Of a DNA stretch of 64,000 nt, positions 3,504-20,898 are shown in pieces. Each line of letters begins with the position of its first letter. Within the stretch, counting starts at the first letter, position 1. Where the stretch lies: the NCBI GenBank assembly GCA_019359155.1, contig JAHHHV010000067.1, positions 62,001 to 126,000 on the forward strand, given 5' to 3'. The DNA is from Pegethrix bostrychoides GSE-TBD4-15B. Its GTDB lineage: Bacteria; Cyanobacteriota; Cyanobacteriia; Elainellales; Elainellaceae. The notes under the pieces were generated by a model, which ran no database searches, was not told the origin of the DNA, and saw nothing but the letters and a program-made list of their open reading frames with translations. The position numbers were made by a program, and so were the translations under genes.

Positions 3504-6500
3504 TCAACCATCAATTTCCATAGCCCGTTCAGGCTTTTTTCGCAGAACCCCGGCGTTAGTCGGAGCTGCTCTGGTTTGTCCGTCTTGCTTTGCGAAGCTG
3601 CGAATGTCCTGCTGCATTGCGAGCTTAGCCTGCTCAGACAGCGGGGCACCCTTGACGGCCTCCTTGGCAATCTCAGTGATGCGGTTCAGGTAGTTTGAGG
3701 CTTTGCCAAGCTGCTGAGCGACTTGATGCCACCGCCAGAGTTCGTCCAGAGTTTGCTTATCCCAGGCTGGCTGTTGGGGCGGCTGCTCGCCCCAGATCAA
3801 TCGCTCGTTCCAGTCCTTGCCCCAGGCAGGCGTGATTCGCCCTACTCCCGGCAATTCCTGGGCAACGCGCCAAGCCATGATTTCCCCGCTTGGATCCGCA
3901 TCAAAGGCCACGCCAACCTGCCCGCCCTGCTCTAGCACTTGCTTCAGCGCGGCGGTGGGAATTGCGCCAGCTCCGTCAGCCGAGAGGTAGACCGATACGC
4001 CTGCTGTGGCCTGACGACGTTTATCCAGTGTGGCCAGGGAAAGGGCGTCGATAGGCGATTCGGTTAGCATCACCCGCTTCACCTCTCCCTGGCCTGCCCC
4101 AAACCAGAACCAGCCCTGTTCGCGAGCAGAGCCAGCAGCCAGACCATGAAACGAGTTGTTCTCGCCCCAAGTGCCCCGCAGACTGGCTCCTGTGACTGCC
4201 CCCCGCTGCCAAATCGCGCAATTGCTGCTGGTGGCATGGCGAACGAAAACGGCGTTCTGCATCGCGTCGGCGTAGATCAGGTGGCGCTGGTGCAGGCGGT
4301 CAACTAAAGCAGCGGGCAGTTTACGAGCTTCGACCAGATAATCGCGCACGGCTGGCCAGCGTCGCTCGTTGGGGGCGGGCATCTCCAGCAGGTGAGGCTT
4401 GTCGCTCTCTGACTGAATCTGGCGTTGATGGGATATCGGCTGGGCTGGAAAGGATTGACCGGAGAGCCATTCCACGGCTGCTGTGAATTCCACTGCCTGA
4501 ACGTGCATCACCAGATCGATTGCGCCACCGCCGCCTCGGTCGGCCAGCCAGTCCATGAATTTGCCATTGCTGATGCTGATGATCTGGTTCCCGTTCCTCC
4601 ACTTGTAGCGGTCATGGCGGTCTTGCTCTAGGCCCAGGCTGGCGGCCACGCTTTCCAGGTCAAAGGCTCGAACTTGGTCTGCCAGTTCTTTGAGGTTGGG
4701 CTGCGGCACTGGATTAGTCGGAATTGCTGGTGCTGTAGGTTGAAAAACTGGACTGGGAGAAGATGTTTGGGATTTCGCTAAAGCAGCCCAAGAGGGGTCA
4801 TAGCCTGTTGTATCTACCTTGTAATCTGTTGCAGCATTGGTGAATGAATTGACATCGAACAGGCTGAGTTCCTGAACTTCAGCAGATGATGCGTCAATCT
4901 GAGCTGAGGTCTGCTGCGGGTGGAGGGTGATGGCGTAGTCGTCTGCTACCGTGACAACCGTGAACTCCTGCGTCAGTTGGGCTAGATACCGTTCCAGGGC
5001 ATGAACGGGAAAGCCTGCTGCTGGCACTCGCCCAACGGTGGGATCGCCAGAACCGATGCTGGTGCTGACCAGTTCCAACCTGTCAGCAATAGCCTGGGCG
5101 TCTTGCAGGTACGTTTCGTAGAAGTCACCTGCCCTAATCAGCACTACAGCATCAGGGTGCTTGTCTTTCATTTCCAAGTAGCTGCGAATGAAGGAACACA
5201 GCGCTTCTCGATTCAGCAATAGTTGAGTTTCTGCTGAGGCTTCACTCACCTCTTCACTCTGCTGGCTTCTAGCAGCGGCTGCGAATCCCTGCTCCAGGAT
5301 GTTGCGCGAGAATAGCTGGGCAAAGGCGCGGTCGGCGGCACGATGTTCTCCACCTCGGAGGGGATCTTGCACTGCCGTTTCTTTGAACTGAAGCTGGCCG
5401 CCCGGTTGAATGCGAAAGACCATCTCAGTATCAATGAACGTGTCGCCGTTCTGTTCCAGGTAGTGGGTCAGATACAGTTGATGATTGTGTCGTTCGACGA
5501 CAAGAGGAATATAGGGGTCGTTCTCAATGCTCAGGTGGAAATCCTCGGTGACGACTTCCCGCAGCTCAGCTTCTTCGAGGAATTTGACAATGCGTTTCTC
5601 TAAACTTCCTACCTGCTCTTTGGAAGAAGCAATCATCAGAGTTATAGGCGGCTGCGAAGTGTTCCCTACTGAATCTACTTCAACACTTTGAATAGGTTCA
5701 CCAGCAGCAAGGATTTCGTTTTGCTGATGCTTTACTGCACCAGTCTCAAACTTTTCCAGTTCCGGTAGCTTGATGCCCAGGTAGTCACGCGCAATGTCTT
5801 TATGTTCAAAAGCAGCCAGCGCGTAGCCTCGCTGTAGCATGATGACATTGAGACTCTGTTCCAATCGTTCGGCAGGCACAACTACTTCCATCCGGTCATT
5901 CACTGAGTAGAAATCAGAGCCGACTGCGGCGATGAGCTGCTCATCCAGATAGTACCGCCCGCCCGAATCTCGCGCTTTGGGCGTTTGCAGCACGAAGTTA
6001 TCTCCCCCCGGTTGGGACTTGAGCAACAGCAGTTCATCCAGGGTTCTCACAGCTCCCTTCCGGTAGGTCAAATTAGTCAGGAAGGCTTTCACCTGATCGG
6101 GTGTGCTGAAGGCAACCGGCTCCTGCTCCAGGCTTTCTTCGATATCGAATCCCTTCGGCATGATCAAGCCCTGGCGGATTTGGCCCTGGCTGTCGCTGTA
6201 GTTGACCAGCTTGCCTTTCGGGTATTTCTCAAACGCCTTGATCAGGTTGCCAGTGAAGATCTGGCGGGTGGTGCGTCCGGCTTCCTGGCGGCGGTCAAAC
6301 AGCGAGTAAATGTCGTTGTTGAACCAGTCTCGCGCCTGGGCATCGACGATAGCCGTTCCCTCTCGGCCTGTGTTGACCTTCGATAGCGGCAGCGTAATTT
6401 GCTTGGCGGCATCGGCCACCAGAATTCGCATCCGCCAAGCGTTAGGCGCAACCGGGTTGCCCGAACGCGCCTTCTGGTCCAAGCTGATCACCACACCGTA

Positions 6501-9500
6501 GAAGACGTTGGCGTTTAGGGGCGTCACGACTCGAACCGAGGTGCCAACCGGAAAAGCCCGGATCGTTTTAACGACCTGGGTTTGCTGTTTGTCCAGCTTT
6601 TCGTTGAATTTGGCAGACAGGGCTTCATCGTGGTTATGGGCCGTAACTTCTGCTCGATACTGATTGACAGCAGCTTTGAGAGACAGAATCGTGGCATGGA
6701 CTTGATCCTGGGCGATAATTGCCACTGCGTCTCGATTGTGTTCGTCCGGGTGCTTGACGGGCGCAAGATCAAGCTGTTCGCGCAGGGCGTTGACGACTTG
6801 AAGCTGCGTCAGGGGTTTGGCAGAGCTTTTGACATCCACGATTTCTAGATACACGGCTCCCGCAAATTCACTCTGAATCTGGCTGTCGTTGGGGATCACC
6901 TGCATCCGCGCCACGGTGCGGGCGTCAAGATCAAGCTGGTCGGCTTCCAGGATGCTTTCGCCCATCGCCCGCTGCTGCTCCACCAGCTCGCCGTATTCCG
7001 ACTCAATCAGGCTGTAAACAGCTTCCTGTTCGGCAATCGGCAACAGCGGAATCCTGCCCGTCACTTTTTTGATCAGGGCAATTTCGGATGCGTCGTTTTC
7101 GGCCTTGGCCGAGGGGTAGTCGAGTTTGGCATCCAGCTCCAGGTCATCGCTCAGCAGTTCGGTCACGACCTGTTCGCCGTAGGGGTTCATGAAGTCCACC
7201 ACGTTTTGAATCGAGATGCCGGTTTCTCTGGCGGCTGTCGTATTGGCGTTCAGCCCCGCCATTTTCTGACAGAGAATTGCACCGGGACGCTTCTCGGCGG
7301 GCAGATCGCTCATCAGCAGCGTGTAGCTGGGTAGGGCAACCTGCCCCGTGCGGTGAACCCGGCCCAGCATCTGCATGAACACATTGATGTCCCGTTCGGC
7401 CTGGGCCACAATCATGTGCCGGGGCCGCTGGTCGGCAAAGCGCTCCGAGGCGTGCAGCGAAATTCCCGTGGATCCAGAGCAGTTGAGAATGATCACATCC
7501 GCCTCACCGCTATTGAACTGAGCCACGGCGCTGATCCGGGCCTGCGAGGTGCGTTCGGTGTCGGGACGCATTCGATAGAACGTGGAGCCATCCGGGGCAT
7601 AGTCAAGCGCAGCACTGCGGCCTGTGACTTCCCGAACACTGTAGCCTGCTCGCTCCAAGCGCTGAGTGATGTAGTCGATGGGGCTGACGGGAATCGTGCT
7701 GAAGTCGGCTTCGCGAATGCAGTCTAAGGCTTCTTCGTAGGCGATGATACCCGTTTCGCCCAGCTCAGCATCGGTTAATCGCTGGCGCGTGACCTGCCCC
7801 CGGTAGTCTTTAATCATCACATCACGAGAGCGTTCTAGATAGCGTTCTAGAAGATTGGAAAAGGAGATCTCAATCGAGTTACCGTTCTGGATATCGTTGG
7901 CTTCCGCGAAAGCCTGGATAAAGCTGCCCATTGTATTGGCCACGGCGATTACCGGCTTTTGTCCAGTCTGCAACGATTGAAGGGCTTCCTGCACGGTGGC
8001 CTCGGCTTTCTGGGCCAGCAATCCCTGCTCAATGCAGTTGTGCATCAGCGAGGTGAACAGGGTGCTTTTAGCCCCGACTTCTCCCACGGCTCCATCCATA
8101 CCAAACGCCTTGGCCTCGGCTTTAAGCTGTTTGCTCAGCTCTTTGATGGCTTTCTGCTTGGCCCGGTCAAAATCTTTGATGGCTCGCAGGGCGGCGGAAA
8201 ACTGGTCGGCTACGTCGCGGTCTACCGGCACGACTTTGGCCTGAAAGCTGATGCCCTCGTAGGAGCGCTCTCGCCGTAGCATCTGGCCGGAGGCAACAAA
8301 CTTGCTGGCGACAATCTGCTGAAGCGGTACGCCGCCTCGGTCGAGAATGTTTTCCAAGGCGGTCATGCTGCTGACGGCAAACTGCAAGTCGGTGCGGCGG
8401 GCATAGAGATCCATCACGTCGGGTCGCTTGGCGTAGGTAGCCGAGCTGTAGAACACTCCAGCGGCGGCATCCACGAGTTCTCGCACGAACTCCGCCCGGT
8501 CGGGAGGGCCAGCCATCCGCCAGCCGCTGGGACTGCCTCCCGCTTCGTGAGCCTCATCCAGAATCAGAATCGCGTTAGGAGCAATCGCCCGCAGAAACTG
8601 ACGGCGCAGCGGCTCCTGCTGCCCCACGGTTTGAAGCTGGCTGTAGGTGGTGAAAACGGCGCTGTAGGAGCTGTCCAAACGACGAGTCAGCATCATCTCC
8701 TTCATGAGCTGCTCCTGCTGGGCTTGGTTGCCGGTTCGCAGTTCCTGCCCGTTGGCCAGCGGAATGATGGCTTTGGTGTCGGTGATGAAGGGCTGAAACC
8801 CGTACAACCCAATGTCGCTGATATCGCGCATCATGTCGGCGTAGAGGGTTTTGTTCTGCGTTACGAACACAGCCGCTCTGCCCTGCTGCCGCGCATAGCG
8901 CAGAATGCTGGCGCAGATCCGCCCTTTGCCCACACCGGTCTGGTCGCCGACGATAAAGCCGCTGCCGCGCTCGATGTTGCTAATGGCCAAAGCCGAAGCA
9001 TCGACCTGTTCAGCGCTGAAGTGGCGATGCAGTTCGGCAATCGAGGCGTAGCCTAGTCGAGAGGCGAGGTAGGCGTCGATCTCGCCATGCTGTTGGGTGA
9101 ACCGATCCAGGGCAGATTGGGCGGCGCTAGCCATGTTGTAGGGGATGAGGGTACCGGTGGAGTTCCCCTGGCTTTTGGGCTGGTAGGTGACCTGCTTCGG
9201 CTGAACTTCGGGGGCGGGCTGATTCGCGGCTTCCATGTGGTTCCCCTCCTTCAGGCGTAAGCGCTCAGCTCGTTGATCCACTCTTCCAGATGGGTCGTCT
9301 GGTGCAGCTCCAGGAAGTCCTGAAACTCCGGGTGGTTCTGGTCCATCACCGTCGCTGGAAAGCTGACGCCCAGCAGCCACAGAGCTTGAGAGAACGCCTC
9401 GCTGTGGAGAATCAGGGTTTCGGCCCAGGCTTGCTGCCACTGCGTCAGCGCTTCCGTTTCCGGCTCGTCCGAGCTGAGCAGCGGGTAGTCCTGGTAGGAG

Positions 9501-10724
9501 TCGAGTTCGCTCAGTTTGGTTGTCAACAATCCCTGGGTGTTCTGCTGGCTGCTGAAGGACGTTATCCAGCGCCCGATCATCCAGCTCACCCGCTGCTGCA
9601 TCAGGGTTTTGTAGGTCTGCTCGTCCAAGCTGGGCAGCGTCGCGGGAACTCGCACCACGAACAGCGACGGCATCACCAGAGGCGTCCAGATCTGCGGGTA
9701 GTTTTCGTATTGCGTCATCGTATTCTTTGGCTCTAGAGGATGAATACTGAATGAGTTCATTGGGCAGTTGCTCCTTGAGTTCTAGAAATGAGCGGTAGAT
9801 CTGGGGAACCTGGGCAGCGGGCAGCGGTCGCTGGGACTGGCCTCGACCGGCGATCACAATCAGATCAATCGGAAACCCTGCCCCCTGTTTGCGGTAGAGA
9901 TCGCCCCAGATCGAGAAGTGCTGCGTGACGTTGTAGTGGTTGTAAAGAATGTAATAAAAAGCTCTACTTTCTCTGGTGTTGTAGCGTTCTGAGCGGCGTT
10001 CTTCATCGTTGCCTAATTTACCTCCTAAAATCAATACCGCTCGACCGTCATCTTTCATCACCTCCAGGGCGTTGAGGGCAATTACATGATCAGTTTGCGT
10101 TGTCCAGGTGTCGCCCAGGAGAAATCGTTTTGTTTGCTCGCCGTCAGCAATTGAGCCGAAAGGCGGATTACAGATAACTCGGTCTACTTGAGTTTGAGGC
10201 CGGTAGGTCGTGGCATCGTTCTGGGTAAGCAGGAAGTAGTTTCGGGTCGCCAGCTCTGCAAAACGGTCGTCGTTGATTTCATTGGCAGTTACCTTGTCCG
10301 GGTTGGCGGTGAGCAGCAATGCGCCGTTGCCAGCGGCAGGTTCGTAGACGGTTGTTTCTGGCGTGATACCGGCTAGCGTTGCAGCTAAATAGGCAATTGG
10401 GATTGGGGTACTGTAGGCTTGCTGAAGCACAGAAGTAGAGGATCTGACGCCCAGATTGGGCTGGCGATTCAGCAGCTCAACTAATCGGTCATAGGCTTGG
10501 TGGGTTGTTTCTGAACTGTTGATTAACAGCGGTGCGGCTCGCACAACGGCTGCTTCCATTGCTTCATCGACCAGCTTGGTAGTCGGACTGCCTGACCCAA
10601 TGGCCACACCTAACAGCTCTGCCGCTTCAGCGCGAGCGTCCGTAATTCGGGCATAGCTTTTTCCCGCGACAAGCTGTTCGAGAAACCGCTGCTTCAGGCG
10701 TTCTCGTTCAGGGTTGTTAGTCAT
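3504..10724 (-). CDS. Giant DNA-processing protein: adenine methylase, Sno-type helicase, MutS-I-like and Toprim domains
   Basis: One open frame of 2406 codons. Residues about 100-300 form an N6-adenine methyltransferase with motif I EPAAGNGALL (128-137) and NPPF (186-189). From about residue 497 there is a strawberry-notch-like superfamily 2 helicase: GDQTGVGKGR (about 590-600), DEAH (about 723), SSAT, and QMLGRVHRTGQ (about 1120). Residues about 1830-1930 resemble MutS domain I (PDAVVLIRAGDFYETY). About 2010-2100 resembles the primase-associated DUF3991 region, and about 2215-2325 is a Toprim domain (LTESPIDALS, VAFDADPSGE). It probably handles DNA in conjugative transfer or establishment. 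The stretch encoded at about 9237-9758 reads as low-complexity Ala/Gly/Asp/Arg and overlaps a separate gene in another frame. An excellent internal start lies at 9236, so an independent 1910-residue helicase-Toprim protein (3504-9236) is likely made. Confidence 0.8.
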   Translation of the reverse strand: MTNNPERERLKQRFLEQLVAGKSYARITDARAEAAELLGVAIGSGSPTTKLVDEAMEAAVVRAAPLLINSSETTHQAYDRLVELLNRQPNLGVRSSTSVLQQAYSTPIPIAYLAATLAGITPETTVYEPAAGNGALLLTANPDKVTANEINDDRFAELATRNYFLLTQNDATTYRPQTQVDRVICNPPFGSIADGEQTKRFLLGDTWTTQTDHVIALNALEVMKDDGRAVLILGGKLGNDEERRSERYNTRESRAFYYILYNHYNVTQHFSIWGDLYRKQGAGFPIDLIVIAGRGQSQRPLPAAQVPQIYRSFLELKEQLPNELIQYSSSRAKEYDDAIRKLPADLDASGDAVAVRGASSRDAAQLGRADLQNPDAAAGELDDRALDNVLQQPAEHPGIVDNQTERTRLLPGLPAAQLGRAGNGSADAVAASLGRNPDSPQRGVLSSSVAAGRQLSSDGDGPEPPGVSGLPGAAPDDPSGRVDQRAERLRLKEGNHMEAANQPAPEVQPKQVTYQPKSQGNSTGTLIPYNMASAAQSALDRFTQQHGEIDAYLASRLGYASIAELHRHFSAEQVDASALAISNIERGSGFIVGDQTGVGKGRICASILRYARQQGRAAVFVTQNKTLYADMMRDISDIGLYGFQPFITDTKAIIPLANGQELRTGNQAQQEQLMKEMMLTRRLDSSYSAVFTTYSQLQTVGQQEPLRRQFLRAIAPNAILILDEAHEAGGSPSGWRMAGPPDRAEFVRELVDAAAGVFYSSATYAKRPDVMDLYARRTDLQFAVSSMTALENILDRGGVPLQQIVASKFVASGQMLRRERSYEGISFQAKVVPVDRDVADQFSAALRAIKDFDRAKQKAIKELSKQLKAEAKAFGMDGAVGEVGAKSTLFTSLMHNCIEQGLLAQKAEATVQEALQSLQTGQKPVIAVANTMGSFIQAFAEANDIQNGNSIEISFSNLLERYLERSRDVMIKDYRGQVTRQRLTDAELGETGIIAYEEALDCIREADFSTIPVSPIDYITQRLERAGYSVREVTGRSAALDYAPDGSTFYRMRPDTERTSQARISAVAQFNSGEADVIILNCSGSTGISLHASERFADQRPRHMIVAQAERDINVFMQMLGRVHRTGQVALPSYTLLMSDLPAEKRPGAILCQKMAGLNANTTAARETGISIQNVVDFMNPYGEQVVTELLSDDLELDAKLDYPSAKAENDASEIALIKKVTGRIPLLPIAEQEAVYSLIESEYGELVEQQRAMGESILEADQLDLDARTVARMQVIPNDSQIQSEFAGAVYLEIVDVKSSAKPLTQLQVVNALREQLDLAPVKHPDEHNRDAVAIIAQDQVHATILSLKAAVNQYRAEVTAHNHDEALSAKFNEKLDKQQTQVVKTIRAFPVGTSVRVVTPLNANVFYGVVISLDQKARSGNPVAPNAWRMRILVADAAKQITLPLSKVNTGREGTAIVDAQARDWFNNDIYSLFDRRQEAGRTTRQIFTGNLIKAFEKYPKGKLVNYSDSQGQIRQGLIMPKGFDIEESLEQEPVAFSTPDQVKAFLTNLTYRKGAVRTLDELLLLKSQPGGDNFVLQTPKARDSGGRYYLDEQLIAAVGSDFYSVNDRMEVVVPAERLEQSLNVIMLQRGYALAAFEHKDIARDYLGIKLPELEKFETGAVKHQQNEILAAGEPIQSVEVDSVGNTSQPPITLMIASSKEQVGSLEKRIVKFLEEAELREVVTEDFHLSIENDPYIPLVVERHNHQLYLTHYLEQNGDTFIDTEMVFRIQPGGQLQFKETAVQDPLRGGEHRAADRAFAQLFSRNILEQGFAAAARSQQSEEVSEASAETQLLLNREALCSFIRSYLEMKDKHPDAVVLIRAGDFYETYLQDAQAIADRLELVSTSIGSGDPTVGRVPAAGFPVHALERYLAQLTQEFTVVTVADDYAITLHPQQTSAQIDASSAEVQELSLFDVNSFTNAATDYKVDTTGYDPSWAALAKSQTSSPSPVFQPTAPAIPTNPVPQPNLKELADQVRAFDLESVAASLGLEQDRHDRYKWRNGNQIISISNGKFMDWLADRGGGGAIDLVMHVQAVEFTAAVEWLSGQSFPAQPISHQRQIQSESDKPHLLEMPAPNERRWPAVRDYLVEARKLPAALVDRLHQRHLIYADAMQNAVFVRHATSSNCAIWQRGAVTGASLRGTWGENNSFHGLAAGSAREQGWFWFGAGQGEVKRVMLTESPIDALSLATLDKRRQATAGVSVYLSADGAGAIPTAALKQVLEQGGQVGVAFDADPSGEIMAWRVAQELPGVGRITPAWGKDWNERLIWGEQPPQQPAWDKQTLDELWRWHQVAQQLGKASNYLNRITEIAKEAVKGAPLSEQAKLAMQQDIRSFAKQDGQTRAAPTNAGVLRKKPERAMEIDG
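9237..9251 (-). promoter_or_regulatory. Strong internal ribosome-binding site for the helicase-Toprim part
   Basis: On the minus strand AAGGAGG (9251-9245) sits eight bases before an ATG at 9236 that is in frame with the giant reading frame and begins MEAANQPAPEVQ. The first A of the site is also the last base of the TGA that ends the nested gene (9253-9251), a typical translational-coupling arrangement. This decides in favour of a real start here and an independent product encoded by 3504-9236. Confidence 0.75.
9251..9760 (-). CDS. Hypothetical protein nested in the giant frame (+1 frame)
   Basis: 169 residues, family not recognised, with normal protein composition: many Trp, Leu, Gln and Glu, for example YENYPQIWTPLVMP and LILHSEAFSQALWLLG. 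The overlapping giant frame is low complexity over exactly this stretch. AAGGAG lies about ten bases before the ATG at 9760, and an in-frame TAG is found just upstream. The stop overlaps the strong ribosome-binding site of the helicase start at 9236. I infer a gene order of methylase, this gene, then helicase-Toprim, in which the methylase frame happens to have no stop. An automatic caller would probably miss this gene because it lies inside a longer frame. Confidence 0.7.
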   Translation of the reverse strand: MNSFSIHPLEPKNTMTQYENYPQIWTPLVMPSLFVVRVPATLPSLDEQTYKTLMQQRVSWMIGRWITSFSSQQNTQGLLTTKLSELDSYQDYPLLSSDEPETEALTQWQQAWAETLILHSEAFSQALWLLGVSFPATVMDQNHPEFQDFLELHQTTHLEEWINELSAYA

Positions 10725-10752: not shown

Positions 10753-11139
10753 CTATTCCAACTGCGTTTGCAGCTCAGAAATCTTGCCGTCCACATAGGC
10801 GGTACTCAAATCGTCCTCCTGCTGTCTTCGTTTGATTTTCTGGTACTTTTGAATGGCTTCGGCTGGGTGGTTCAGCGCCGTTAATGCTTTTGCCTGATTG
10901 TGGTAGATGCTGTGGTAGATGCCGAGTCGGTCATGAGGACGGAGCTGTTCAGCCTGGTTGAAATCAGCGAGCGCTTTTTCATAGTCGCCCTGTTCGGCAT
11001 AGCGTTCGCCCCGGCGCAGAAATTCTTTAGCTGTTGTGGGCGTCATTTCCTCAGGCGTGAGATTCGGCTGGGCAAGTCCAATGAAGAAAACGATGATCAG
11101 GAGCAGCGCATAGCCGCGCAGCACAATAAAAAAACGCAT
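10753..11139 (-). CDS. Small membrane-anchored TPR protein
   Basis: 128 residues: one N-terminal membrane helix or signal anchor (residues 3-23) and two or three TPR-like units (ERYAEQGDYEKALADFNQAEQL, then a region around NQAKALTALNHPAEAI). The start at 11139 is chosen because AGGAGG lies five bases upstream and the hydrophobic segment begins there; a longer frame overlaps the preceding gene. It sits between the methylase gene and an 11150-12985 gene in the conjugation operon. A scaffold role on the membrane is likely; nothing more specific is visible. Confidence 0.75.
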   Translation of the reverse strand: MRFFIVLRGYALLLIIVFFIGLAQPNLTPEEMTPTTAKEFLRRGERYAEQGDYEKALADFNQAEQLRPHDRLGIYHSIYHNQAKALTALNHPAEAIQKYQKIKRRQQEDDLSTAYVDGKISELQTQLE

Positions 11140-11149
11140 GGTTGCCTCC

Positions 11150-12985
11150 TCAGCCCAATTCCAATCCGGCGGTAGTTTGACGAACGCGAGCAGTTGGTTG
11201 CGGTTGAACCTGCTCTGACTGCTGCATTTTTGCGGCCAGTCGATCAAAATGGGCAAAATCTCTGGCTCCCAGTTGAGAAAAAACCTGACCCGCCTCGCGC
11301 TGAAACACCACGCCTCGATCTTCCTGCTTGTCGGTAATCCGCAGCATTCCCGCATCCCCAATCTCCAGCTTGAATTTGCCGCCTTCCTTATCCCAGACGT
11401 TAGCCTGCGCCTTGGTTTGCAGAAACTGGGTGACGATTTGCTCGACTCGACTGGTTTTGGCATTATAAGCAGCTTCCACATCCAGATCGCCCTGCGGCGT
11501 GAAGCCCCGGTTCTGCTGCATTGCTTGCAGCTCTTTAGCCTGAAAGCTGCCCAAACGGACGCTGGTTGAGAGTCCCTGAATGCTTTGCCGAGTCAGTCCA
11601 GGAATGAGCGGCTTGAACGCCTGAAATCGCATCAGCTCGCCTTTGCTATTCCTGAGCGTGTAGAGATTTCGACCTTTGAGGCTGATTGAATATTCGCCCA
11701 GTTGGTAGGTTCGTTCTCCCGTGCGTTCGTAGCCCCGATTGAACAGGTCAAGTGCCGCACGAGCAACCTGCTGGTGCCGCCAGTCTTCTACCTTTGCGGC
11801 CAGCCAGCCCAACCCCTGTCGCAGCCCCTGCTGTAGCCCCTGAACCTGCTGACTCCAATCTCTAGCCGTGGTTTGTAGCAACTGCTGAGTCACGCCAGCG
11901 GGCAGTTTCGCGGTTGCCCGTTCCAGAACCGCAATGGCGGGCAGGATTTGGTCATTTTGTGTGGCCGGAGCAACATCAACCGTCAGTGAACCTGTGTCGC
12001 GAGGGATAGGAGCATCCTGGATCTGGGTCTTCTTGATTTCGCTGGCGTCCACCGCATCGGCTGTGAAGGTGAGGCTATCTTGATTCAGGGGAGCGCTGTT
12101 AGTCCAGAGGCCGTTGCGTTTGTTCTGCTGGGCATCGAGCAGGTCGTGCTGCATCGTGTCGCCATCCAGGACGCCTGATTCGACCAGCACAGGTTTGCCG
12201 TTCTGGTGATAGCCATTCTGCGTGATGTTTGTCTGATTGGGACGAGGTTCTAGACTCCCAAACGCATCCCAGTCCTGTTGAGTAACTCGATTGGTGATGA
12301 TTTCGCCGTTGCTGGTCGCCAGAATTGGCTCGCCATCCCGACTGATGCTGATACCATTCTCATCCTGCCGAATCTGGTAGCCTTTGACGGACACCGCATC
12401 GTAGATCGGCTGCTGCTCTTTGAGAGGATTGAGCAAATAGTCAGCGGTTTGGGCAATCCGCTCTGCCTGCTCCAGCGAGACGGGCGGCGATTCGACTCTG
12501 AGCGGTTCTTGTGGGCTTGCTGCGGCCTGTGCCGGTTCTGGGGTTGGTGTGGCTTCAATCTGCGGCTCCAGCTTTGTCTGTGCCTCTTGAGCAAGCTGAA
12601 ACTGAATAGCATTGGCCGTAACCGTTCCGTCTCGTTCTTCTCGAAACAAAACCCGGTCGCCATCGCGAATCTCGATCGCCGGAACCTTGCCTTTGTAGCG
12701 GCTAGCGTCAACGTCCGGCGCGACCGGACGCTGGATTGCGTCAAAGAGCGCCTGCATTTTGTTGGCATCCAGCTCATTGCGGAACTGTCCATCCGCCAGC
12801 CAACCATAGACCAACCTGCGGCCCATCTGGATGCGGATTGCTTCTGGTGGCTCAGCGGCAGCCGGTTGGGGCGGCGGATTCAAGAAACTGATTGCGCCTC
12901 TGGTGGCTTGCAGAATTGCGGACAGCAGTTGAACTTCGTCTTCTTGAATCGCTTGAGCGTCAGCAGGATTAATTGTCAGCACCAT
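11150..12985 (-). CDS. Conjugation-operon protein of unknown function
   Basis: 611 residues from the ATG at 12985, preferred because GGAGG lies eight bases upstream and the start overlaps the previous gene's end by 17 bases; an ATG at 13021 would add 12 residues. The N-terminal third (MVLTINPADAQAIQEDE onward) is a compact domain, then a Pro/Ala/Glu-rich linker, a middle section with repeated GEI/GIS strands, and a C-terminal region (about 430-600) that looks folded and basic. No HUH or tyrosine relaxase motif, Walker motif or membrane segment is seen. Its place directly after the coupling-protein gene would suit a relaxosome or DNA-processing partner, but that is inference only. Confidence 0.65.
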   Translation of the reverse strand: MVLTINPADAQAIQEDEVQLLSAILQATRGAISFLNPPPQPAAAEPPEAIRIQMGRRLVYGWLADGQFRNELDANKMQALFDAIQRPVAPDVDASRYKGKVPAIEIRDGDRVLFREERDGTVTANAIQFQLAQEAQTKLEPQIEATPTPEPAQAAASPQEPLRVESPPVSLEQAERIAQTADYLLNPLKEQQPIYDAVSVKGYQIRQDENGISISRDGEPILATSNGEIITNRVTQQDWDAFGSLEPRPNQTNITQNGYHQNGKPVLVESGVLDGDTMQHDLLDAQQNKRNGLWTNSAPLNQDSLTFTADAVDASEIKKTQIQDAPIPRDTGSLTVDVAPATQNDQILPAIAVLERATAKLPAGVTQQLLQTTARDWSQQVQGLQQGLRQGLGWLAAKVEDWRHQQVARAALDLFNRGYERTGERTYQLGEYSISLKGRNLYTLRNSKGELMRFQAFKPLIPGLTRQSIQGLSTSVRLGSFQAKELQAMQQNRGFTPQGDLDVEAAYNAKTSRVEQIVTQFLQTKAQANVWDKEGGKFKLEIGDAGMLRITDKQEDRGVVFQREAGQVFSQLGARDFAHFDRLAAKMQQSEQVQPQPTARVRQTTAGLELG

Positions 12986-13355
12986 CGTACTTTCCTCCAT
13001 GCAAGAATCCTTGGGCTGCAAGGGCAGTTGCTATGCCCTCAACGCGGTTGACAACAAACTCAGCGCCAATCTGAAACAGGGCAATTTCATCATTGAAGCG
13101 ACATTCAATGAATGCAGGCTCGTAGTTAGAATCGCAGTTCCGAATAAAGGTCAGCACTCCCCTCACAGAACGAAGATAGGGCAGATCATCGAATAGAACT
13201 TCAACAACTGTAGGGACATAGCCAGGAGGAAACGGCAGCAGCAGTCGCTCTTGGGCCAGATCTGCCAGAATCTCTGGCTGTCTGGAGAGCAGAGCTGCGG
13301 CCTGGGGAGACAGTCCCCACTCAAACGGATTGGGTTGCGTCAGAGTTTGTATCAT
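12969..13355 (-). CDS. Hypothetical protein between coupling ATPase and the 611-residue protein
   Basis: 128 residues, not recognised. Soluble and acidic, with a Leu/Pro-rich N-terminal half (RLLLPFPPGYVPTVVEVLF) and a C-terminal half with FNDEIALFQIGAEFVVNRVEGIA. It begins inside the last bases of the coupling-protein gene (ATGA-type overlap at 13352-13355) and overlaps the next gene by 17 bases, so it is translated as part of the same operon. There is no signal peptide, so it acts in the cytoplasm. Confidence 0.7.
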   Translation of the reverse strand: MIQTLTQPNPFEWGLSPQAAALLSRQPEILADLAQERLLLPFPPGYVPTVVEVLFDDLPYLRSVRGVLTFIRNCDSNYEPAFIECRFNDEIALFQIGAEFVVNRVEGIATALAAQGFLHGGKYDGADN

Positions 13356-15085
13356 AGGTAGTCCTCTTGAAGTCGAAACATTTCATCGTATTCATCCTCA
13401 GTAATGTCAGGATTCACGTCCTGAGCTTGTCCAGCGCTAGATGATCCATCAACAGGCAGGGGAAACAATCGCTCGGCCATTTCTCGACGAATTTCGTTTT
13501 CTTGGTCTAAATCAATTGCACTGTGCTGCTGGAGCATTTGCCCAGTCAGGCGGCCACAGACTTTGCTGTGCCACAGTTCTGTACTGCGCTGCTGAATCTC
13601 GATTTCCTGCTGAGTAATCTTCACCTTCAGCTTGAGCGGAATCGACGCCTCGTACCCACCTTTGTAGGCTGGGTTAATAAACACGCATTCGCCCTGATCC
13701 AGTTTCAGGATTTGATCCGGCGTTAACAGCGGCATTTTATGGTGCTGTTCTGAATAGCTGCTCCCTTGTCTGCTGTGGGAACGGGTATGCAGCCGCACTT
13801 CTTTCTCGCCCAGGTAGCCAGAAAACTCAGTTGCAGTTTCGCGGTCTTTGGGGTTGAAGAACACTTTTGTGCCGCAGGCGGCGAATAGCGCCCGCGACAG
13901 CTCGCGCCCGTACATATGCTGCAACTGGGCAAAGTTCTGGTAGCCCAGCAGAGCAACAAAGCCGTAGGAGCGAAACTCGTTGATCCATTTGGGTAGCTCT
14001 GGCAAGTAAAGCGTCGGCAATTCATCCAGAGCAACAACCAGCGGCGTTGGGCGGGGTCGAGCAAAGTTGCGCGTCACAATCAGGTGCAGCACGGCAGCCA
14101 GCAGTGGACTGACGGTATCGCGCTTTTGAATATCTACCTGCAAAAACAGAATTTGCTTCTCCTTCAGATCCAGCGGAATCGTGGTCTTGCCGCAGAAGCT
14201 AGACACTAGCTGTTTGCCGATGAAGGTTTTGAAGGTGCGCTGGGCCGTGGCGACAATCCCGGCGATCTGCTTGTCTGCGCCTTCAGAAGCCAAGAGCTGA
14301 CTGAAGCTCTCCATCGTCCAAGCTGGAATTCGGCCCGCCGCTCCAGCCGCTCGGATGCGAACGGGCAGATCCGAGAGATTCAGCAGCTTGCTGGCCATCA
14401 GCAGGTCGGGGTACGGCGTCATTTTGGCGAGCAGCATCACGGCTTCGACCAGATTGGTACCGGCACTGGTAAAGAAATCGTTGTCCCGATAAGCTCCGTC
14501 TCGCTGCGTGTTCTTTTGCAGAACCTGGGCGAGCTGGGCGGCCATGAGTGAATCCGTGGCGTCGAGCAGAAAATCGAGCGGATTACAGACTCCGGTGTAG
14601 GGCTGACCGGGTGCAAACACCGCCACCTCGTAGCCTTGTGCAGCAGCCCAGGCGGCGTGCGCCTCAAGCTGGCTGCCCTTGAAGTCGTACACCAGAACCG
14701 GAAACCCCTGGGCGATGGCCGAACGAATCGCCGGGTCGATAATGCTGAACGTCTTCCCGGAATCGGGCGCTCCGGTGACGGTCAGGCTTTGCTGAGCATG
14801 GGGAATATCTAGATTTCCGGCCTTCAGCGCTACTTTATGAGCCTGTCGGCCTCGGCGCTGCTGACGGGCAACTGCTGCGGCTCGCCACTGCTCAGAGCGC
14901 CCGCCAAACCGTCCGGTCGTCATCTTGCCTTTCTTGGGGCTAAACAGCGTTGCGCCCACCATCAAGAGCGCCATGCCCAGCAGCAGCGTTCCCAGTCTGG
15001 AATGGGTCACCGAATGGATCAACGGCTGAATTGGGTGAATAACGTCCTGTTCGATTTGGGTGTGACTGTGGTGTTGCTTACTCAT
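13352..15085 (-). CDS. Type IV coupling protein (VirD4/TraD-like ATPase)
   Basis: 577 residues. One N-terminal transmembrane segment (about 31-48) is followed by the Walker A motif GAPDSGKT (105-112), the FKG motif of coupling proteins (VYDFKGSQLEAHA, about 132-144), and a Walker B VVALDELPTL (about 350-358). The C-terminal part contains the GYQNFAQLQ region typical of TraG/TraD ATPases. Coupling proteins bring the relaxosome DNA to the secretion channel and power transfer. It is shorter than F-type TraD (about 720) and has a single visible membrane helix instead of the usual two. Tight overlaps on both sides place it inside the operon. Confidence 0.9.
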   Translation of the reverse strand: MSKQHHSHTQIEQDVIHPIQPLIHSVTHSRLGTLLLGMALLMVGATLFSPKKGKMTTGRFGGRSEQWRAAAVARQQRRGRQAHKVALKAGNLDIPHAQQSLTVTGAPDSGKTFSIIDPAIRSAIAQGFPVLVYDFKGSQLEAHAAWAAAQGYEVAVFAPGQPYTGVCNPLDFLLDATDSLMAAQLAQVLQKNTQRDGAYRDNDFFTSAGTNLVEAVMLLAKMTPYPDLLMASKLLNLSDLPVRIRAAGAAGRIPAWTMESFSQLLASEGADKQIAGIVATAQRTFKTFIGKQLVSSFCGKTTIPLDLKEKQILFLQVDIQKRDTVSPLLAAVLHLIVTRNFARPRPTPLVVALDELPTLYLPELPKWINEFRSYGFVALLGYQNFAQLQHMYGRELSRALFAACGTKVFFNPKDRETATEFSGYLGEKEVRLHTRSHSRQGSSYSEQHHKMPLLTPDQILKLDQGECVFINPAYKGGYEASIPLKLKVKITQQEIEIQQRSTELWHSKVCGRLTGQMLQQHSAIDLDQENEIRREMAERLFPLPVDGSSSAGQAQDVNPDITEDEYDEMFRLQEDYL

Positions 15086-16252: not shown

Positions 16253-18514
16253 TCAAAAGTCCGTATACTGTCGCGGATCAACAGGTTCACCGTTCTCGCG
16301 CACCTCAAAATGCAGATGGGGTCCGGTGCTGCCACCCGTGCTGCCTACCTGTCCTAGCACATCTCCCTGGGCGAGCTGCTGTCCCTCCTTGACGTTCATG
16401 TTGTCGAGGTGGGCGTACCAGGTTTCACGCCCGTTGCCGTGATCCACAATCACAAGCTGGCCGTAGCCAGAAGTCATGGAGCCGCTGACGCCTGCAAACG
16501 TGACGGTGCCGCCGTCAGCGGCTTGGACCGGGGTGCCAGTCGGTACTCCTAAATCGATGCCCGCATGAAACCGCTCGTCGCCGTAGATCGGGTGAATCCG
16601 CCAGCCGAATTCGCTGGTGACGGGAGCACCGGCTACAGGAGAGGCAATCGCCCCCGTGGACTGGCCACAACTCGAATTGGTTTTGGTCTGGGCAGCGCTT
16701 TCGTACTGAGACCGCAATTCTTCGCCGTAGGTTTTCAGCGTCAGCCGTCCGTGGGCGTCAGAAGCACCGCCGTCAATCGGGGCACCGGCCCCGCCAAAGT
16801 GGATCTGCCCGACTCGTTCGATTAACCGCCCGCCGGAAAAGCCTTCGGCCATTGCCTGGTCGATATTGCGCGTCTGGTCGCCTTTGAATAAATTGTCCTG
16901 ATCCGAGGCGGAGAAAAACCGCTCGACTTCGGCTTCGCTGACGGCAGCGCCGGAATCGACCCGCGCCAGAAACGCCGCGCCGCCGTCTTTTTGGCTAACC
17001 GTCTGCCGCACATCCGAACGATAGCTCATGTATTGATAGCGCCCCAATCCGCGACCGCAGTTGCTGTCCCCGTCGCAGACAAAGCTACCAACCGAACTGT
17101 AGTTGCCCTCAATGCTGGAGAATGCGGCGGCCAGCGCCTCAAAATCAATCCCGCCCGGTCCTTCGCCGCAGAGCGAGCCGCCCCCAGCTAGTCCCTGATT
17201 GCCGCCCGTCAAAGCGGCTTCTGGAATGCCCCACTGTCTTGCTTTTTCCAGGACGCCTGCCGGAATTGCAGCCGGAACTGACGCTCCGCCCAATCCATCC
17301 AGCAGTCCCACAAAAATCGGCTCTGTTTCGCGATGGCTGAGAAACGGTACGGGGCCGAGGAAGTAGGGGGTGCAGCCTAGATCGGGAACGCCCCGGTAGC
17401 AGATGCGAAAGAACAGGGCGGTCGTGACGGTGCCTGTCGATTCATCCGTGTCCCACAGGGCCACCTTGAAGGCGTTACCAAAGGGATGCCGCCCAGTTGG
17501 CTCTTTGCCGCCGTTAACCGATTTCAATACACCAAACCCGCCCTCTACTTCCTGGTATTTGCCGGAGATCCACTGCTTGCCGTAGAGCGGCCCTGCCAGC
17601 TCGGCATAGCCGCAGTCGATTTGACAGGCTGCGCTGAAGCCCACCTGCTGGCTGCCAGAGATCGTGTTGCGCCGATCCGTTTCACTGGGGCCATAAACCA
17701 CATCGACAATGCCAATCAGCCCCAGCGTCTCGATAGGATTCGGCATCTGGTCCAGTGGCAGATCCGCGAGTCCCGGTACGCCCGCAATCAGGCTGTTGCC
17801 CCAGTCGTTCAGACTCTGGAGCGGAATGTTGGTCAAATCGGGAATATCGCTCAGCGAAAATTGATTTAGATTCTCCAGTTCGCCCAGGCTCAGTTGACCC
17901 AGTTCAGGCTGAGCGCTCAGCACTTCGGCAATCGTGGAGCTGGTGCCAATCGCATCAGGGTCCCAACCGGGACTGCTTGGGAACTGACTTCCCGCTAGTT
18001 TGTCTTCCAATAGCGCGGCGATAGGAGGAACGTTATCAACTTGATAGCTGCCCAAGCCCGGAATAGCCGTGACCAGATCATCAATCTTTTGCCAAGCCAT
18101 CATCTGCAAGGCATCCAGCGCGATTTGAGACGGATCAAAATTGGCCATCTGGCCAAGCGTCTCTAGATTAAAAAGTTGCGGATAGAGGCTGGTTTGAAAA
18201 TCGCCCAGCTTGAGATACTGGTCAGCCCTGTCGCCTGCCTGCCAACTGCGAGAAAGGTCGTAGCCCAGAAGCTGGTTGACCTCTGGCGGAGCCGTAAAAG
18301 AACCATCTGACAGAATGGGCGGCAGCGAGCTGAAGCTGATCTGCGACCAGTTGGGAACGCGGGCAAACTGGCCGTCTGCTTCAATGGTGGTCAGAGGCAT
18401 AGCAGGTTCTGTGGCAATATCGCGGGCGGCTCCGGGCAGCGGCAGCAGAACCAGCAGGAAGGACAGAATCAGTCCAACCAGGAAGCGAATGGCTCGATAG
18501 GATCTGCCTGCCAT
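16253..18514 (-). CDS. Peptidoglycan hydrolase with lysozyme-like and M23 domains (VirB1-like role)
   Basis: 753 residues. A signal peptide (about 8-30) is followed by a long region of about 380 residues of unknown fold with DIPDLTNIPLQSL-type repeats of Leu/Pro. A lysozyme-like segment lies at about 470-570 (SSIEGNYSSVG with a candidate catalytic Glu, and GRGLGRYQYM). A C-terminal M23/LytM metallopeptidase carries the zinc motifs HAGIDLG and HLHFEV. It would open the cell wall for assembly of the conjugation channel, the job of VirB1 in Agrobacterium. Two different cell-wall-cutting domains in one polypeptide resemble what is seen in Gram-positive VirB1-type proteins. It precedes the two small envelope proteins without a gap. 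Confidence 0.85.
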   Translation of the reverse strand: MAGRSYRAIRFLVGLILSFLLVLLPLPGAARDIATEPAMPLTTIEADGQFARVPNWSQISFSSLPPILSDGSFTAPPEVNQLLGYDLSRSWQAGDRADQYLKLGDFQTSLYPQLFNLETLGQMANFDPSQIALDALQMMAWQKIDDLVTAIPGLGSYQVDNVPPIAALLEDKLAGSQFPSSPGWDPDAIGTSSTIAEVLSAQPELGQLSLGELENLNQFSLSDIPDLTNIPLQSLNDWGNSLIAGVPGLADLPLDQMPNPIETLGLIGIVDVVYGPSETDRRNTISGSQQVGFSAACQIDCGYAELAGPLYGKQWISGKYQEVEGGFGVLKSVNGGKEPTGRHPFGNAFKVALWDTDESTGTVTTALFFRICYRGVPDLGCTPYFLGPVPFLSHRETEPIFVGLLDGLGGASVPAAIPAGVLEKARQWGIPEAALTGGNQGLAGGGSLCGEGPGGIDFEALAAAFSSIEGNYSSVGSFVCDGDSNCGRGLGRYQYMSYRSDVRQTVSQKDGGAAFLARVDSGAAVSEAEVERFFSASDQDNLFKGDQTRNIDQAMAEGFSGGRLIERVGQIHFGGAGAPIDGGASDAHGRLTLKTYGEELRSQYESAAQTKTNSSCGQSTGAIASPVAGAPVTSEFGWRIHPIYGDERFHAGIDLGVPTGTPVQAADGGTVTFAGVSGSMTSGYGQLVIVDHGNGRETWYAHLDNMNVKEGQQLAQGDVLGQVGSTGGSTGPHLHFEVRENGEPVDPRQYTDF

Positions 18515-19263: not shown

Positions 19264-20898
19264 CTACATCGGCATAAACATCGATTGATTGACAAAGATT
19301 TGAACAGGGGTTCCAGCTTTAATGAATCGGGCGTTCGGCAGTTCTTCCAATCGTTCCACTGCGCGTTGATTGCGTTCCTGAATCGTTTCGAGAATTGCGT
19401 CTGTACCGCCTTCAATCAGACCGGCCAGAATGTTTGGCGCTGGATTATCTTCGGTGATAATCGTGCTGGATCCTCTAGTTTGCACACGAGTATCAGAACG
19501 GGTGTACAACTCTGCGGCTCGTCCGATTGCTCCCAGGGCGAACTGGCCCGCATCCATTCCGGCAATCTCATCGCCGCGATCCTGATAATGCTCGGCTAGC
19601 AGCGGTTCTCCTGCTTCACCCCGAATCTGAACGGCACCCGCAGGCAGCACGAGTTCTTGCTGAGCGCCGTTGACCTCCCAGGTTGCGGTTGTAGCCGTCA
19701 AATGCACCTGCCCCGTTCTAGATAGTCGCTCTACCTGGAACAAAAACTGGGTGCCAGCCGGAAATGCAACCCTGCCGCGACTGCCGGTCAGCGGCTCTGC
19801 CAAAACTGCTGCAAACTGGTCCGAGCTGCCGGAGCCATTTACCACAATGGGCGTTACCAGAACAGCGGGGCTGCTTGTGCCAGCAATCAGCGATTGGGGG
19901 TTCGAGTCGCTCTCCAAAATGGTGGCTTCAGCTTCTTGCAGAATCGGCACGGTGGCTTGGACCTCTGGTAATGGAACGGTTGATTCTGAAGCATCCGGTT
20001 CGACTGAAGCTGGTTTTGGCATCTGATCCTGGAGTTCTGAGATTCTGCGCGGCGGTGCCGTCTTCAAGCGGTCAGAGATTGACTGGACGGCTGAAGTAGG
20101 AGCAATTTGGGCGGTTGGTACAGATAGAACCGCCTGCGCTATTCTTTGCCCGTCCAGCCTTTGCCCGCCTAGCCTTTGCCTGGAAGAAGAGAACTCCATC
20201 GACGCAATGCGCTCTGGCTGAATAGAGCCGTAGCTGCCTAGCTGAGCAAGCTGCTGCCACTGCTGCATCGGATCAACTGAGCGGGCACGAGAAGGGGCAG
20301 GGGTGGATGTGGGTCTGCGGACGGGCGCAGGCTGGTTTCTAAACGGCTGGGGTGCATAGGTCTGCGGGCGAGGTTGAGCTACAGACGTGGCACGAGCCGG
20401 TGCAGGCCGAGCTTGAGCCGTAGGTTTTGCGGTTGGGGCAACCTTCGGAGTTTTGGTCTGCGCTCTAGCCTGCCGCATCCGCTGTTCGATTTCAGCCTGA
20501 TCATTCAGCGCCATACCGGCCTTGAGTCTGGCGTTTTCTTCTCGCAGTCTTGCCAAATCTCTGTCCGTAGGGGTCTGCGATTGGGCGACTGAACCATCTT
20601 GAGCAGAAGTTCCCGCCTGCTGGTGCTGGTCACCGCCACCCAGCACGAACCAACAGACCAGCCCAAAAATCGGAAACAGAATCGTGCCCACCAGCGCAAA
20701 CTTGGGCAGAGGTTGAGTCCAGCGAGGCCGGTGAGAACGGGCCGCCTCGACTGAGAATTCTGCTTCGGTGAGCAGCGGCTGGTGAGACGGAGCCTGGGTC
20801 AGTCGCCGCAGATCCTCTGTCGTCATTGGCCCATCGTCCTGAGGTAGACTGTCCTGATGCAAATTAGGATTGGCACCGGATCGTTGCTTCTCTTCCAT
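19264..20898 (-). CDS. VirB10/TraB-like channel scaffold
   Basis: 544 residues. The order is VirB10-like: a cytoplasmic N-terminus, one transmembrane helix (FALVGTILFPIFGLVCWFVL, about 67-86), a long Pro/Ala/Arg/Gln-rich periplasmic linker with a short coiled coil (about 110-150), then a C-terminal beta-barrel-type domain (about 345-470) with the TrbI-like features PLTGSRGRVAFPAGTQFLF and AVQIRGEAGEPL. VirB10 spans both membranes and gates the channel. Its ATG lies four bases from the stop of the VirB8-like gene, so the two are coupled. Confidence 0.82.
   Translation of the reverse strand: MEEKQRSGANPNLHQDSLPQDDGPMTTEDLRRLTQAPSHQPLLTEAEFSVEAARSHRPRWTQPLPKFALVGTILFPIFGLVCWFVLGGGDQHQQAGTSAQDGSVAQSQTPTDRDLARLREENARLKAGMALNDQAEIEQRMRQARAQTKTPKVAPTAKPTAQARPAPARATSVAQPRPQTYAPQPFRNQPAPVRRPTSTPAPSRARSVDPMQQWQQLAQLGSYGSIQPERIASMEFSSSRQRLGGQRLDGQRIAQAVLSVPTAQIAPTSAVQSISDRLKTAPPRRISELQDQMPKPASVEPDASESTVPLPEVQATVPILQEAEATILESDSNPQSLIAGTSSPAVLVTPIVVNGSGSSDQFAAVLAEPLTGSRGRVAFPAGTQFLFQVERLSRTGQVHLTATTATWEVNGAQQELVLPAGAVQIRGEAGEPLLAEHYQDRGDEIAGMDAGQFALGAIGRAAELYTRSDTRVQTRGSSTIITEDNPAPNILAGLIEGGTDAILETIQERNQRAVERLEELPNARFIKAGTPVQIFVNQSMFMPM

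Follow-up and report, generated by a model that had tools for sequence, protein, structure and literature searches.

Some small proteins are translated from an internal start within a larger gene and in another frame, as in the case of Rz1 in Rz and comS in srfAB. In prokaryotes, long nested genes meet with doubt, since gene callers exclude them and many of the cases come from few strains. Two described systems are close to the locus analysed here. One is the polyvalent dyad with DarB as its archetype, in which an N6 adenine methylase and a SWI2/SNF2-type helicase are joined in one giant protein of conjugative elements, as described in PMC5512222. That paper reports polyvalent proteins as scarce in cyanobacteria and those with MutS-I from Bacteroidetes and Firmicutes, and its main text holds no word beginning with 'overlap'. 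The other is the hidden HNH endonuclease of ShiLan, which is a real protein encoded out of frame within a phage methylase gene that keeps its own frame open. It is presented as a homing insertion with a disjoint distribution and no detectable ribosome-binding site (PMC11855218).

The window is a stretch of 64,000 nucleotides from the cyanobacterium Pegethrix bostrychoides GSE-TBD4-15B (contig JAHHHV010000067.1, positions 62,001 to 126,000). An earlier note had pointed to a 169-residue gene in the +1 frame of one uninterrupted 2406-codon frame, and this arrangement was confirmed. The nested gene is called X below. The features are the following.

3504 to 10724, minus strand: giant frame, 2406 aa, one uninterrupted open frame; domain order by Pfam is N6 methylase, linker, Strawberry-notch helicase (AAA_34, Helicase_C_4), DUF6908, MutS_I, DUF3991 and Toprim
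9761 to 10724, minus strand: methylase part of the giant, with the N6_Mtase match in residues 104–233 of the translation of 9740–10724
9251 to 9760, minus strand: nested gene X, 169 aa plus TGA, in the +1 frame of the giant
9237 to 9760, minus strand: linker between methylase and helicase, that is, X's bases in the giant frame; stop-free and of low complexity
9771 to 9776, minus strand: Shine-Dalgarno sequence AAGGAG of X, anti-SD duplex energy –7.5, with X's ATG at 9760
9245 to 9250, minus strand: AGGAGG before a possible helicase restart ATG at 9236, duplex energy –12.3
3504 to 9236, minus strand: helicase-to-Toprim part, a possible separate product if translation does restart there
13352 to 15085, minus strand: type IV coupling protein (TrwB_AAD_bind, TraG-D_C, T4SS-DNA_transf), context
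16253 to 18514, minus strand: Peptidase_M23 protein between conjugation genes, context
19264 to 20898, minus strand: TrbI-like conjugation protein, context

The nested gene has its own ribosome-binding site, AAGGAG at 9776–9771 before the ATG at 9760, as had been proposed. The claim that its stop lies beside a strong site for a start at 9236 was also borne out, since the TGA (9253–9251) is directly abutted by AGGAGG (9250–9245) and followed by an in-frame ATG of the giant at 9236. The Pfam matches of the giant had E-values of 2.8e-6 for N6_Mtase, 3.9e-23 for AAA_34 and 1.4e-25 for Helicase_C_4. A methylase is followed by an SF2 helicase in one polypeptide, and the helicase is the Strawberry-notch kind of dyad helicase. 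The dyads are also marked by an LPD36 domain with GXG(G/A/S) before the methylase, and a GSGS stretch was seen by eye in the N-terminus of the giant. The coupling protein and TrbI lie within about 10 kb, which places the giant on a conjugative element, and its relatives are found on plasmids and phage contigs too. The fusion had been called doubtful in the earlier note; that doubt was misplaced, as methylase-helicase fusions are a known class, the DarB-like 'dyad' described in PMC5512222. By analogy with DarB as treated in that paper, the giant is likely to be an anti-restriction protein. One domain of the part from 3504 to 9236 is MutS_I, here in a polyvalent protein of a cyanobacterium. A TPR ORF (10753–11481) just upstream of the giant overlaps a 623-residue ORF (11150–13021) by about 330 bases, and a Pfam search of the latter gave no match.

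A tblastn search of X against plasmids matched seven records. The Vibrio record was taken as noise (E 3). The other six are cyanobacterial, with X beneath a gene annotated as helicase or Strawberry-notch protein, and in five of the five first plasmid relatives examined X was in the +1 frame of an uninterrupted methylase-helicase frame. The helicase-based scan of named genomes gave 67 loci and two viral-contig scans gave 39, and further plasmid and phage records were added. Many of the loci are close relatives, so locus counts are not counts of independent events. Among the loci found via the helicase, X was present in +1 in nearly all cyanobacterial ones whose front part is complete. L052 and L056 break off at or close to the helicase start, L061 and L062 are without the helicase start, L078 is broken, and in L034 a methylase was not seen upstream. 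A +1 ORF is in the same place in alphaproteobacteria, Bowmanella, a Moraniibacteriota MAG and the Bacteroides phage BS-TP4. All of the 37 viral loci with a placeable methylase end hold a +1 ORF of 92–198 codons, and 12 of the 37 match the X profile; L118, outside the 37, also holds X. The X profile matched 54 of 388 genomes of the class. The counts of this search are lower bounds because at least seven loci (L253–L259) were missed by it. The helicase query from L221 matches 46 of the same 388 genomes. In genome G578 five X matches lie on different contigs, and therefore several dyads seem to coexist in one cell. An X-like ORF of 233 codons with a long N-terminal extension was seen in a Thermosynechococcaceae MAG (L045, 5249–5950).

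At 1e-3, 76 of the 110 candidate ORFs joined the iterative X profile and 34 stayed out, including those of L102 and L104, which were not counted as X. When phage X types were compared with cyanobacterial X by profile, A3-A4 gave E 2e-4 with 46% probability, and A3-A5, the comparison with the Bacteroides-phage profile, gave no match (E 0.045, 1%). The X calls without a profile match rest on position, start and, where tested, substitution pattern, and the Bacteroides-type call rests also on a second AlphaFold2 model. Some decoys also scored with the iterative profile. Five of the ten best non-copy decoys were X or X fragments absent from the list (L118, L019/L094, L055 minus strand, L078), and the remaining five had E-values of 0.03 or more. 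No X was found in L097, L101, L102–L108 or the P1 stretch L098 with darB, where the best X-profile E was 1.2 over 951 segments. Of these, L097 (Acinetobacter phage) and L102–L108 (beta- and gammaproteobacterial and Bosea plasmids) are fused dyads and L101 is unfused. On the helicase tree, two changes account for the distribution of X over the 75 rows counted, of which 66 have it and 9 lack it; 42 of the 66 are profile members and 24 were scored by position without a profile match. With this scoring, X is present in 66 of the 67 counted rows of one deep helicase clade.

The comparison of homologous elements suggested in the earlier note gave X embedded in the +1 frame of an open giant in most relatives and as a separate gene in some. 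Its warning that gene callers lose the nested gene was justified, for among the annotated X-bearing records examined only that of Gloeobacter lists X. In Gloeobacter morelensis pGMOR1 (L099, 3495–3944), X is annotated as hypothetical protein WP_230844304.1; the helicase is started at 3941 and no methylase is listed, although the frame runs without a stop from 2480 and takes in the methylase. In Oscillatoria sp. CS-180 (L057, around 5300–6300) the giant is decayed, with stops in the methylase end and the helicase, and the X frame is intact. This locus was left out of the stop and start counts.

The substitution pattern was analysed with 133 pairs from 56 loci at 80–90% helicase identity. The values for frame-0 positions 1/2/3 in the overlap were.238/.114/.092, which are X positions 3/1/2, and those of the control parts were.151/.128/.437 for the methylase and.051/.024/.329 for the helicase. 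In the overlap, position 3 of the giant codon is the most conserved and position 1, X's third, the least, whereas in the methylase and helicase parts of these genes it is position 3 that is the most variable. Five Bacteroides-phage loci gave.346/.229/.201 for the overlap versus.095/.083/.463 for the methylase and.090/.051/.478 for the helicase, and four L130-type phage loci gave.179/.119/.099 versus.105/.067/.281 and.130/.064/.346, respectively. Because the overlap substitutions follow X's codon positions, X is the protein under the stronger constraint. The purifying selection that an overlapping gene pair should show on its embedded frame is thus seen. The earlier note had named conservation of the linker in the giant frame and not in +1 as the finding that would speak against it. 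The opposite was found: among 16 close relatives the amino-acid identity was 84.5% for X and 71.6% for the giant frame of the same bases, and in a diverse set.268 and.187. A shuffle test was also performed, in which the frame-0 linker codons were shuffled 300 times per locus and the +1 ORF length was compared. In 48 of 51 loci with an X-profile match and the methylase-end motif, a +1 ORF of the observed length came up in no more than 1% of the shuffles; in the +2 frame, 0 of 51 loci gave such a result. In the viral set the length was beyond the shuffles (p up to 0.05) in 22 of 37 loci.

The giant frame over X is kept open. Any X codon ending in T before AA, AG or GA makes a frame-0 stop, so an unconstrained giant frame would soon close. 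Over 59 loci, 0 giant-frame stops were observed versus 437.7 expected when synonymous codons were redrawn with host gene usage, and versus 209.7 when X's own codons were shuffled. In 24 mostly non-cyanobacterial loci the same two tests gave 0 observed versus 137.6 and 47.3 expected. Both sets were found through the helicase, and L066 is in both. Among loci found through X alone, in sets that share genomes with the helicase-found ones, the giant frame was stop-free in 39 of 40 (43 examined, 3 without a match, five places occurring twice) and in 32 of 39. The eight loci with stops comprise seven free copies and L201, which has one stop. The host frame is kept across the overlap, as expected of an overlapping pair, and divergence at 4-fold sites is.241 in X versus.399 in the helicase and.456 in the methylase. 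Since substitutions follow X's codons, and since giant-frame stops are absent when X is embedded and number 7–18 when it is free, both frames are under selection. These comparisons show X to be a selected protein and the giant frame to be selected to stay open. In the giant-frame product over X, the residues G, S, A, R, D and P are abundant and K, Y, W and C are scarce, and this make-up suggests that the linker is probably disordered. The dual-open arrangement recurs in dozens of separately sequenced loci, so an indel artefact between 9700 and 9850, for which a check had been advised, is very unlikely.

The structure of X was predicted by AlphaFold2. The window X, modelled with 47 sequences, had a pLDDT of 90.6 and a pTM of 0.85, and a Bacteroides-phage X without a profile match had 91.0 and 0.85. 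By eye, without superposing the models, the two agree in how their strands and helices follow one another, except for one helix. The Pfam search of X gave no family, HNH included, and the PHROGs search gave only phrog_9962 (0.0037). In the PDB profile search the only matches were interleukin-6 chains (best E 0.015), which were judged to be chance. Foldseek with the window X model gave no convincing match (best E 1.9 in PDB and 0.63 in BFVD), the VIA structure comparison had a best Z of 3.7, which is not convincing, and the Bacteroides-phage X model had a best E of 2.5 against PDB, again no convincing match. A missing PDB or BFVD match does not exclude a known fold.

Free-standing copies of X serve as a natural control for the overlap. 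Nine of nine have 7–18 stops in the equivalent giant frame, and a tenth, on the minus strand of L055, has 10. In L221, L222, L253 and L254, X stands as an ordinary gene immediately before a helicase that lacks an N-terminal methylase; in L221 (6629–13051) the methylase match is C-terminal to the helicase, the reverse of the order in the window giant. In a quick tree these four form one clade (SH-aLRT support 100) beside the embedded L090, L255 and L258, and the seven together also have SH-aLRT 100. When the root is taken among or next to the X-free rows, the free state reads as release from the overlap. This root is an assumption, and the reverse direction may hold instead. Other copies lie away from the helicase (L217, L218, L219, L220 and L094), so X need not always act with it. 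The X copies of L217 and L218 adjoin Dps-like and ATP-synthase-like genes, named from sequence by eye. A common N-terminal extension (RYRPILR-like) is shared by the free X of L217 (2495–3136), L218 (6613–7212), L219 (6580–7146) and L220 (6628–7200). The X of L217–L220 is possibly a domesticated chromosomal form.

How X is reached was judged from its start, taken by rule as the first ATG. In 58 cyanobacterial loci this ATG had a mean SD energy of –6.24, with 57% at or below –6; among control ATGs the share at or below –6 was 8% of 1458 in frame 0, 11% of 2124 in +1 and 21% of 98 in +2. The stop in X's frame lies at a median of 5 codons before this ATG. Together, the Shine-Dalgarno site and the near stop favour internal initiation over frameshifting. 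Bacteroides-phage X starts have weaker SD energies of –1.1 to –5.5 (ATGs of L096, L109–L116). Taking the evidence together, we consider it very probable that the giant methylase-helicase carries a full gene X in the +1 frame of its linker and that X is made by internal initiation. Ribosomes starting at the giant's ATG would read through X out of frame and produce a low-complexity, probably disordered linker that joins the enzymes. Those starting at the internal SD and ATG at the methylase end would produce X as a small acidic folded protein, and their translation would end just before the helicase. The conserved start site suggests that this initiation takes place on the giant's own mRNA. Of the two options left by the earlier note, a fusion plus a nested product agrees with the data, because giant-frame stops are excluded over embedded X and plentiful in free X; for the same reason the option of three genes without a fusion does not.

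The role of X is the less settled part. X is directly 5' of the same helicase whether embedded or free, which suggests a dedicated partner, such as a regulatory subunit or chaperone of the helicase part. Taken by itself, this role has about an even chance. X might instead act alone as an anti-defence protein, for instance an acidic DNA mimic, with the locus shared as the element's entry kit; we regard this, the main competing view of its function, as rather unlikely, though worth keeping in mind. X is acidic, with 93 of 99 ORFs negative, a mean charge of –9.8 and a median pI of 4.62, and eight of nine free copies are negative as well. It is found in polyvalent giants of conjugative elements and phages, the class with the anti-restriction archetype in PMC5512222, and the copies away from the helicase would suit an independent function. 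The acidity is partly expected from the overlap, which alone predicts –3.2 of the observed –6.5 charges per 100 aa, and some phage X of the L130 type are about neutral. The place directly before the same helicase, even without overlap, argues against X acting alone. No solved DNA mimic was among the Foldseek PDB matches of X, and a missing match proves little.

The remaining alternatives concern how the locus is read, and all are far less probable. That methylase, X and helicase are three separate genes which share an open frame by chance, with no fusion made, is very improbable. The Gloeobacter annotation calls X and the helicase separately, and 51 of 58 cyanobacterial loci have a frame-0 ATG after X's stop and before the helicase, versus 29.7 expected (22 of 25 versus 12.3 with one locus per clade). 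However, such an ATG was present in 13 of 38 phage and other loci versus 23.6 expected, the methylase would have no stop of its own, and giant-frame stops over X are 0 versus 438 expected, yet abundant in free copies. As the ATG is enriched in cyanobacteria and not in phages or others, a separate helicase product, which the earlier note had proposed from 9236 and which is weakly supported, is possible in cyanobacteria and not a general feature; the SD score of the restart ATG is inconsistent across loci. Ribosomal frameshifting from the methylase into X, giving a methylase-X fusion, has marginally less in its favour. It would suit the +1 position of X in the embedded loci examined, but the shift would be confined to the very short stretch behind the stop in X's frame, the first ATG tends to have a Shine-Dalgarno site, and there are free-standing genes for X. 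It is barely credible that X is a mobile insertion placed out of frame in the manner of the hidden endonuclease of ShiLan. The layout is the same, with an open host frame, a real protein in another frame and a phage methylase gene (PMC11855218), but X shows no endonuclease domain in its Pfam search, and its two tree changes over 75 rows (24 of the 66 'present' by position) do not give the sporadic presence among close relatives that a homing insertion would have. In the loci read, no empty site came up among close relatives within a dyad lineage. The least probable of all is that X codes for nothing and only mirrors the linker. A GC-rich linker readily gives rise to a long +1 frame, the shuffles at 0.05 were not exceeded in 15 of 37 viral loci, and even the X-free L102 (87 codons) and L104 (121 codons) have a +1 ORF, without an X-profile match. 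This reading is already contradicted for the core set, where substitutions follow X's codon positions, free-standing homologues exist and the AlphaFold2 fold is confident.

With the internally initiated partner gene as the preferred reading, a broader proposal can be made, to which we give slightly less than an even chance. X and the giant may be among the most widely conserved fully nested same-strand pairs of bacteria and phages, possibly with a new fold, in which one DNA stretch doubles as linker, the overlap was opened at least once and X controls or escorts the giant. If so, the effector and its partner would be inseparable by recombination, and at least once the methylase would have left the front of the helicase and X would have turned into an ordinary adjoining gene. 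Cyanobacteria, proteobacteria, a Moraniibacteriota MAG and Bacteroides phages all show the overlap. Therefore, together with the free copies, it can be used as a test bed for simultaneous selection on two frames. For the known class of anti-restriction giants, X is a further, hidden component. It also indicates a protein family that is missing from Pfam and illustrates that an inter-domain linker can be supplied by the DNA of another gene.

The methylase-helicase fusion itself is already known; the nested X has no Pfam family and was not found reported, and the literature search gave no report of this overlap among the matches listed. The window giant resembles the polyvalent dyad, and the difference lies in X, which is lacking by profile from the DarB of phage P1. 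The nearest described layout is the hidden endonuclease of ShiLan as given in PMC11855218. X is unlike that endonuclease in its distribution, domain content and start, as it is widely retained, lacks an HNH match and has a Shine-Dalgarno site.

Compared with Rz1 and comS, X is placed in the inter-domain linker of a giant enzyme, occurs in several phyla and is also found free beside the same helicase.
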